Source: Ponticaulis sp. (GTDB lineage Bacteria; Pseudomonadota; Alphaproteobacteria; Caulobacterales; Hyphomonadaceae). From it: a stretch of DNA of 64,000 nucleotides. The notes beneath the pieces were generated by a model. The model did no database searches and had not been told where the DNA came from. It was given only the letters and a program-made list of their open reading frames with translations. The position numbers were made by a program, and so were the translations under genes. Positions 23,625 through 25,454 of this stretch are shown one piece after another (the first letter of the stretch is position 1; every line of letters begins with the position of its first letter). The stretch lies in assembly GCA_002692725.1 (NCBI GenBank), contig NZLU01000023.1:496001-560000 (forward strand), read 5' to 3'.

Positions 23625-24071
23625 TCAGGCCATTGCGGCGTGGCGCAGCTTGGCCATGAAACGATATCCGTCACGGACCTCGTCCACGCCCAGCTTGTCT
23701 TCGAGACCGTCCTGAACGCCTTGCCAGATTGGATAGGCCGCTTTGAGACGCGCTTCACCTTCAGATGTCAGGCGATGCACGATAGCGCGACCCGTCGACT
23801 TGGTATCGCGTTCGATCAGCCCATCTTCTATCAATGGTCTCAGATTGCGGGACAGGGTGGATTTCTCAATACAGAGCGTTTGGCCTAACTCAGATATAGA
23901 GCCGAACTGCCGGGACCCGATCGCGACAAGCAATGTAAATTGTGTGCCGGTCAGCCCAACTTGTTTCATTTGTTGGTCGAACAGACGAGCAACCGTCCGG
24001 GCGGTCATCAGCGTTCTGACGCCGGCGCACCGGCTGCCTATCGCTTTCAGATCTTCTAGAGTTATTGACAT
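23625..24071 (-). CDS. MarR family transcriptional regulator
   Basis: The 148-residue protein has the MarR winged helix: LTGTQFTLLVAIG, then a recognition helix region SISELGQTLCIEKSTLSRNLRPL, then the wing LIERDTKSTGRAIVHRLTSEGE. It should bind DNA as a dimer and respond to a small ligand. No strong ribosome site precedes the ATG. The upstream region (24072-24177) lies between it and rnpB. The target genes are not evident; the PiT-like gene is convergent. Confidence 0.9.
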   Translation of the reverse strand: MSITLEDLKAIGSRCAGVRTLMTARTVARLFDQQMKQVGLTGTQFTLLVAIGSRQFGSISELGQTLCIEKSTLSRNLRPLIEDGLIERDTKSTGRAIVHRLTSEGEARLKAAYPIWQGVQDGLEDKLGVDEVRDGYRFMAKLRHAAMA

Positions 24072-24177: not shown

Positions 24178-24561
<384 letters not shown>

Positions 24562-24563
<2 letters not shown>

Positions 24564-24602
24564 CCATTTTTGCCCATTTATTTGCTTTGGGCAGATTTGG
24601 GC
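24562..24602. promoter_or_regulatory. Four MraZ-type boxes at the rnpB 3' end
   Basis: CCCA occurs at 24563 and 24573 (TGGGA and TGGGC on the minus strand) and TGGG at 24588 and 24598 (TGGGC twice on the plus strand). Each pair has the 10-base spacing of known MraZ operators (TGGGN repeated with 5-base spacers). The pairs face each other. They lie about 380 bases before mraZ and touch helix P1 of rnpB. Confidence 0.5.
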
Positions 24603-24745
24603 CGGGTGCGAGCTTTTGTGGCTTTTTCTGTCTCCTTCGTGCGTATCCGGGCAGATCTCAATGAAATTTTTACTCTCTGCCTACATTTTTCTTTAACCAT
24701 CTGGGGAAAAAGACAGTCGTCCCTGAAGATTCACTATATCTTGTG

Positions 24746-24760
24746 TGGGTTAGGGTGGGC
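24746..24760 (+). promoter_or_regulatory. Pair of MraZ-type boxes in mid leader
   Basis: TGGGT at 24746 and TGGGC at 24756 are spaced exactly 10 bases apart on the plus strand, matching the MraZ box repeat. They lie about 65 bases upstream of the TATAAT hexamer. Confidence 0.45.
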
Positions 24761-24801
24761 GGACATCATATACTGATGTCGCAGTGAAAACGGGCTTTTC
24801 C

Positions 24802-24828
24802 TCAGATGTAATCTGATCCCGTTATAAT
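24802..24828 (+). promoter_or_regulatory. Candidate mraZ promoter with an operator-like palindrome
   Basis: TATAAT at 24823-24828 is a perfect minus-10 hexamer. Just before it TCAGAT-GTA-ATCTGA (24802-24816) is a perfect inverted repeat where RNA polymerase would contact the spacer. No good minus-35 is visible, so an activator may be needed or the element may be fortuitous. Confidence 0.45.
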
Positions 24829-24889
24829 CCTATATTGTTCGTGTTTTGTTTGCTGGCGGTATGCGCCTGAGCTGTGAATGGGGGCGTAA

Positions 24890-24944
24890 TCCCATTGTTG
24901 CCCAATTCTGCCCATGTTATCCCAATCTTCATAGAGATTTCCCA
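24890..24944 (-). promoter_or_regulatory. Array of five MraZ boxes before mraZ
   Basis: CCCA occurs at 24891, 24901, 24911, 24921 and 24941, so on the minus strand TGGGA, TGGGC, TGGGC, TGGGA and TGGGA lie in one exact 10-base register with a single box missing at 24931. MraZ is known to bind TGGGN repeats spaced by 5 bases and to repress its own operon. The array ends about 30 bases before the mraZ start. Confidence 0.85.
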
Positions 24945-24974
24945 GAATGGGTTGGTGTTTGCTGTGGGCTGGAA

Positions 24975-25454
24975 ATGTTTCTGTCTACCTTTGAAGGGAG
25001 TATTGATGCGCGCGGACGGGTTCTCGTCCCGTCGAGCTTCCGTGCACTCCTGGGAGGCGCTCAGAAATTCTTCCTCTATCCGGACTCCTCAGGTGCTGGC
25101 TGCCTTGAGGGCGGAGGGCAGGAGTTGATGGATAAGCATGTCACCCTGTTCAACAATCTGCCGCCAAACTCCAAAGACCGTGTCGCCTTTGTGAATGCGA
25201 TTTTCTCCAAGACCAGTGAAATCACGATGGATCAGGCCGGGCGCGCCGTAATTCCGCCCATGCTGCTGACCCAGGCCGGTATCGAAAAAGACCTTCTGTT
25301 CGTCGGCGCGATGGATCGCTTTCAGATCTGGAACCCCGAACGCTATGCGAATTTCGACGCCGATCACAGCGAGCACGCCATCAACAATCAGGATGCGCTG
25401 ATCCAGCCATACTATGAAGCGCGTGACGGCAAGACATGGGGAGGCAATTCATGA
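24975..25454 (+). CDS. mraZ: Transcriptional regulator MraZ
   Basis: The 159-residue AbrB-fold DNA-binding protein forms rings and represses the division and cell wall operon in other bacteria. It has two SpoVT/AbrB-like repeats: FLSTFEGSIDARGRVLVPSSFR at the N terminus (only the first part counts as the motif DxxGRVxxPxxFR) and SEITMDQAGRAVIPPML near 90-106. The ATG at 24975 fits the conserved family start; longer frames would run through the MraZ box array. The ribosome site is weak. The stop overlaps rsmH by 4 bases. Its own putative operator lies just upstream. Confidence 0.95.
   Translation: MFLSTFEGSIDARGRVLVPSSFRALLGGAQKFFLYPDSSGAGCLEGGGQELMDKHVTLFNNLPPNSKDRVAFVNAIFSKTSEITMDQAGRAVIPPMLLTQAGIEKDLLFVGAMDRFQIWNPERYANFDADHSEHAINNQDALIQPYYEARDGKTWGGNS

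Follow-up and report, generated by a model that had tools for sequence, protein, structure and literature searches.

MraZ is among the most conserved bacterial regulators, and its operator in Escherichia coli is reportedly the subject of Eraso et al. 2014. According to the accessible text of two papers, MraZ of other bacteria forms octameric rings and represses its own operon (PMC7761207, PMC8475190). In the E. coli operator of the same texts, TGGG-type direct repeats recur every 10 bp upstream of mraZ, and E. coli MraZ represses its own operon (PMC8475190, PMC7761207). For Burkholderia cenocepacia, one array is described at the dcw promoter, downstream of the -10 element and over the start site; its four 7-nt repeats are separated by 3-nt spacers, which gives a period of 10 bp (PMC7761207). 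The Mollicutes operator, (AAAGTGKN3)3 (Fisunov et al. 2016, via PMC5282649), likewise has direct repeats every 10 bp; an MraZ octamer binds them, and the cluster is repressed. The accessible text gives one operator only, and for M. genitalium it says that the motif occurs nowhere but in the mraZ promoter region (PMC8475190).

Herein, a window of 64,000 nucleotides from Ponticaulis sp. (contig NZLU01000023.1) was analyzed, and the features of its mraZ locus are collected in Table 1. The order on one strand is rnpB, mraZ, mraW and the remaining dcw cluster. A four-box proximal array and three distal box pairs, d1, d2 and d3, all sit between rnpB and mraZ. A divergent MarR-family regulator gene on the minus strand (23628-24071) is located directly upstream of rnpB. 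The ATG start of mraZ was inferred from the relatives. The mraZ product is similar to the solved MraZ 1n0e (E 4e-15, sequence comparison), the solved entries 9qlr, 9sx6 and 9qlg were matched by sequence alone, and both D-x-x-G-R segments are present (DARGRVLVP and DQAGRAVIP). By the Pfam and solved-structure matches, a cognate MraZ with both DNA-binding repeats is encoded beside the boxes.

Table 1 Features of the rnpB-mraZ region (positions of the window).
Feature	Position	Strand	Detail
rnpB, RNase P RNA class A	24178-24563	+	RF00010, 324 bits, match 24180-24565
rnpB helix P1	5' strand 24178-24189; 3' strand 24552-24563		GGCCATCTGATC (3' strand)
Distal box pair d1	24563-24576	-	TGGGCAAAAATGGG on the minus strand
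Distal box pair d2	24588-24601	+	TGGGCAGATTTGGG
Distal box pair d3	24746-24759	+	TGGGTTAGGGTGGG
GTTC-N7-GTTT direct repeat, between d3 and the array	24837-24851	+	GTTC-N7-GTTC in relatives
Proximal four-box MraZ array	24891-24924	-	CCCATTGTTGCCCAATTCTGCCCATGTTATCCCA; period 10 bp
Putative mraZ core promoter	24895-24923	+	TTGTTG (24895-24900), 17 bp, TATCCC (24918-24923)
mraZ, transcriptional regulator of the dcw cluster	24975-25454	+	Pfam MraZ, 7e-18

The proximal array (CCCA at 24891, 24901, 24911 and 24921) and d1, d2 and d3 are all made up of a TGGG core that is repeated directly every 10 bp. In this the locus is like the E. coli operator, upstream of mraZ, and like the operators of B. cenocepacia, also with four repeats, and of Mollicutes. 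Repression of its own operon by MraZ would be a further likeness in kind to E. coli. Unlike in E. coli, the boxes are on the minus strand within the -35 to -10 region, whereas the B. cenocepacia array follows the -10 element. The locus also differs in that further conserved pairs are found as far as about 350 bp upstream: the accessible texts describe none for E. coli, report no distal boxes for B. cenocepacia (PMC7761207), and give the Mollicutes a single operator.

The putative core promoter has a TG extension of the -10 element at 24915-24916 and is interleaved with the array. A simple sigma-70 consensus scan gave no promoter match at mraZ. A comparative pattern, TTG-N20-TAT with a TG extension, recurs across the order. 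In the order, 104 of 130 genomes have a TG-N-TAY -10 element that overlaps a CCC box, and most of those 104 also have a TTG -35 element 17 bp earlier with CCCA boxes between. The overlap of array and promoter is thus found across the order, so that MraZ on the array would cover the region from -35 to -10. The mraZ leader (24941-24968) also contains single boxes, CCCA at 24941 and TGGG at 24948 and 24965. Most relatives keep them, but their spacing is other than 10 bp.

The sequence-only reading had proposed three distal MraZ-type pairs, and all of them (24563/24573, 24588/24598 and 24746/24756) were confirmed, each with exact 10-bp spacing. The first is CCCA on the plus strand, which is TGGG on the minus strand, and the other two are TGGG on the plus strand. 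The pairs d1 and d2 are therefore in opposite orientation and face each other, as had been proposed. The frequency of TGGG-N6-TGGG pairs was then counted over both strands of the 3.89-Mb genome. There are 76, about 1 per 51 kb, and the reversed control pattern occurs 72 times, so the TGGG pair is at background genome-wide. Six of the 76 fall inside 24563-24924 (362 bp), three being the distal pairs and three coming from the four-box array. Among the genomic pairs listed, a run of at least three boxes occurs only in the mraZ array. The 308-bp distal stretch has 3 pairs against 0.023 expected, and none of 20,000 dinucleotide shuffles reached 3. In the distal stretches of seven genomes there are 16 pairs against 0.19 expected, with a maximum of 3 in 2,000 shuffled sets; a slightly wider distal region gives 18 pairs. 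Three pairs in about 300 bp are very unlikely to have arisen by chance, and the locus does not share the pair frequency of random intergenic DNA.

The distal pairs share the motif of the promoter operator, as auxiliary operators would. TGGGCA-N4-TGGG is common to d1, d2 and two of the three proximal pairs, and the d2 site of relative L032, TGGGCAGAATTGGG, is letter-identical to one proximal pair of the window. When spacers were scored with a weight matrix from the proximal arrays of the genus, those of d1 and d2 outscored 70 of 70 background genome pairs. The d3 spacer ranked 49 of 70 and is unlike the other boxes of the window genome. The box number is four in the proximal array, two in each of d1, d2 and d3, and three in the L031 counterpart of d2; the distal pairs of the window thus fall short of the three or four repeats of MraZ operators. 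Similarly, the proximal array is located at the promoter, and the distal pairs are 155-338 bp upstream (centre to centre). As candidates for a wider MraZ regulon, two array-like genomic pairs (L010, L170) were checked and set aside, both lying inside coding sequence.

Conservation was compared between the window and six relatives, L031-L036 (Ponticaulis or Hyphomonadaceae records). The rnpB-mraZ synteny is retained in all six relatives. The d2 pair is retained in 7/7 genomes and d3 in 5/7, having been lost in L031 and L032, and d1 is present in 2/7, the window and its nearest relative L031. The eight box columns of d2 do not vary at all, whereas each of the 22 other columns examined there (spacer and flanks) does; at d3, the eight box columns are likewise invariant, and most of the remaining columns vary. 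A protein site made of direct repeats would be expected to give this column pattern. Over the distal region of the seven genomes, two TGGG on the same strand are spaced by 10 bp 18 times, and any other spacing from 4 to 39 occurs at most once each. L034-L036 carry an extra minus-strand pair at -339. The proximal array is complete in the window and L031-L033 and has one substituted box in L034-L036. The identification of MraZ-type boxes is thereby upheld, with pairs beyond chance and with d2 and d3 conserved across the genus.

Six genomes have d2 and the array 289, 289, 288, 288, 288 and 288 bp apart. The seventh, L031, has a distal three-box array (-410, -400, -390) in 10-bp register with the window box at -390. 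Between the more distant genomes, the interval sequences share only about 58-68% identity, and the stretch of 50-55 bp from the array to the start codon differs in length among genomes. Within the genus, the helical phase of d2 and d3 relative to the array is nearly constant. A single helical phase across lineages was considered and rejected, as the distances of 98, 135, 138, 146, 156 and 320 bp share none when judged by eye.

Similarly, 19 of the 22 genomes examined in the sister genus (g5; L063, L075-L097) have a distal CCCA pair, always exactly 98 bp ahead of the array, and the ungapped identity of this interval is about 55%. Some of these genomes also have a three-box plus-strand array near -382 to -394. 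Eleven genomes outside the two genera (in g4, g8, f2, f3 and f4) have a distal pair, and the genome-wide pair rate predicts fewer than one. In genus g3, the proximal array stands without any distal pair in 26 genomes, and the same holds for most members of families f2-f5. MraZ control can thus do without the distal sites. A further 20 genomes of the class usually have the proximal array and occasionally a distal pair.

Interval lengths are thus fixed in both genera despite sequence divergence, and other conserved elements also lie inside the intervals. The first proximal MraZ box follows the GTTC-N7-GTT(C/T) repeat at a distance of 54 bp in 6/7 genomes (all except L032). The copy at 24837-24851 has the layout of LexA (SOS) boxes of Alphaproteobacteria. 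A GTTC spacing of 11 bp is also the commonest one upstream of mraZ in families f2 (15), f4 (13) and f5 (11), and an SOS input to the dcw cluster is possible. The element at 24693-24707, TTAACCATCTGGGGA, is conserved as TTAACCAT in 5/7 genomes and as TTAA...TGGGGA in all, and it resembles a CtrA half-site. ATAT-rich elements flank d3 on both sides (24720-24785) and are kept even in L031 and L032, which have no d3. About 30 bp before the array, TGTGGAT, which is like a DnaA-box core, is conserved in L063, L075-L097 and L042-L044. Because the intervals hold GTTC repeats, TTAACCAT and TGTGGAT, a number of interlocking sites may account for the fixed length, which leaves looping as the likeliest, not the sole, reading of the fixed intervals. 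The sequence-only reading had suggested looping to the proximal array; spacing that is conserved where sequence is not fits this suggestion, without proving it.

Our preferred explanation, which we hold to be somewhat better than an even bet, is that d2 and d3, probably together with d1, serve as auxiliary MraZ operators that work with the promoter array, probably in a looped repression complex. In this mechanism, MraZ would fill the four-box array built into the core promoter, and RNA polymerase would be blocked. The same ring-shaped oligomer, or a second one, would also hold the distal pairs, whose centres are about 155 and 313 bp upstream of the centre of the array. The region would be folded into a loop, and autorepression would be stronger. 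The arrangement suggests that MraZ grips its control region at several fixed points, not the promoter alone. We consider binding of MraZ to the distal pairs quite likely, and the holding of distal pairs and array in one looped complex a claim with slightly under even chances. A more elaborate form, with rings at d1-d2 and d3 bridged to the array so that one loop closes the dcw promoter and sets a boundary at the rnpB 3' end against read-through, is improbable; it would turn MraZ from a simple promoter blocker into a looping, architectural repressor.

The distal pairs might instead bind MraZ and act alone, as a sink for MraZ or as a roadblock to read-through from the strong rnpB gene into the dcw cluster, with no loop. 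The position of the pairs is favorable to this: rnpB is directly upstream in the same direction, no intrinsic terminator was found after it on the plus strand by a simple scan, and d1 and d2 are immediately behind its 3' end. However, independently acting sites need not have the fixed spacing to the array that is found. The roadblock is further at odds with the sister genus, where the distal pair exists with no rnpB within 1.5 kb upstream in six genomes scanned, and with most f2 and f4 genomes, which have rnpB directly upstream and no distal pair. We regard action of the pairs on their own as unlikely, and a roadblock effect on rnpB read-through as possible but unsupported.

The distribution in the sister genus also bears on rnpB itself. 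The sequence-only reading had the first two pairs touching helix P1 and had raised a tie between MraZ and the transcription of RNase P RNA. The contact proved minimal: only the first C of d1 is shared, being the last P1 base (24563). The proposed tie is not supported, as this one-base overlap is present in 2/7 species, the region upstream of rnpB, which must hold its promoter, is without any box pair, and the sister genus keeps a distal pair without rnpB upstream. From these data rnpB is unlikely to be an MraZ target. A general link between MraZ boxes and rnpB was also rejected, since a TGGG pair behind the rnpB 3' end occurs in 2 of 200 genomes of the order, both of this genus. A plasmid search gave rnpB-like matches only.

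Folding of the rnpB trailer was considered as another origin of the boxes. If the TGGG/CCCA runs behind rnpB were arms of an RNA hairpin, a terminator or processing element, they would not be protein sites. Hairpins with boxes as arms do fold in L033 (z -3.8), where sequence other than CCCA boxes forms the opposite arm, in the window (z -2.3) and in L034 (z -2.2), with a weak case in L036 (z -1.35). But no hairpin excess was found in L031 (z 0.03) or L032 (z 1.1), both of which still have d2, so on these scores a stable trailer hairpin is not common to all relatives. No U-run follows the hairpins, and the exact 10-bp spacing, the identity to the array, d3 and the pair of the sister genus would be left unexplained. 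We find this origin quite improbable, and a trailer hairpin and protein sites may exist together.

Alternatively, a different TGGG-binding protein with the same motif as MraZ could have its sites at the distal pairs. A shared motif does not by itself identify the binding protein, and the d3 spacer of the window differs from the spacers of the MraZ array. Such a protein is nevertheless hard to reconcile with TGGG pairs that are at background genome-wide and with the coding location of the two array-like pairs checked. The 10-bp period is moreover exact as in the MraZ array and occurs next to mraZ itself, and we give this second protein little credence. Chance is serious for d1 alone, which is found in 2/7 genomes and is not conserved beyond the closest relative, but it is very improbable for the set, given the shuffle and genome rates for three pairs in about 300 bp and the conservation of d2 and d3.

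The proposed auxiliary MraZ operators have a parallel in other repressors. In the lac, gal, ara and lambda cI systems, looped oligomeric repressors use secondary operators at a fixed distance from the promoter operator. The likeness lies in the second, here putative, operators at fixed distance. Unlike those operators, which are palindromes, the targets of MraZ rings are direct repeats. Our literature search found no report of MraZ looping. To our knowledge, the reason for MraZ rings of 8 or 12 members at operators of three or four boxes is unsettled. The conserved distal pairs at fixed distance from the array offer a natural case in which spare ring subunits could bridge two operators. If this is true, looping would be part of how these bacteria control their division and cell-wall cluster.
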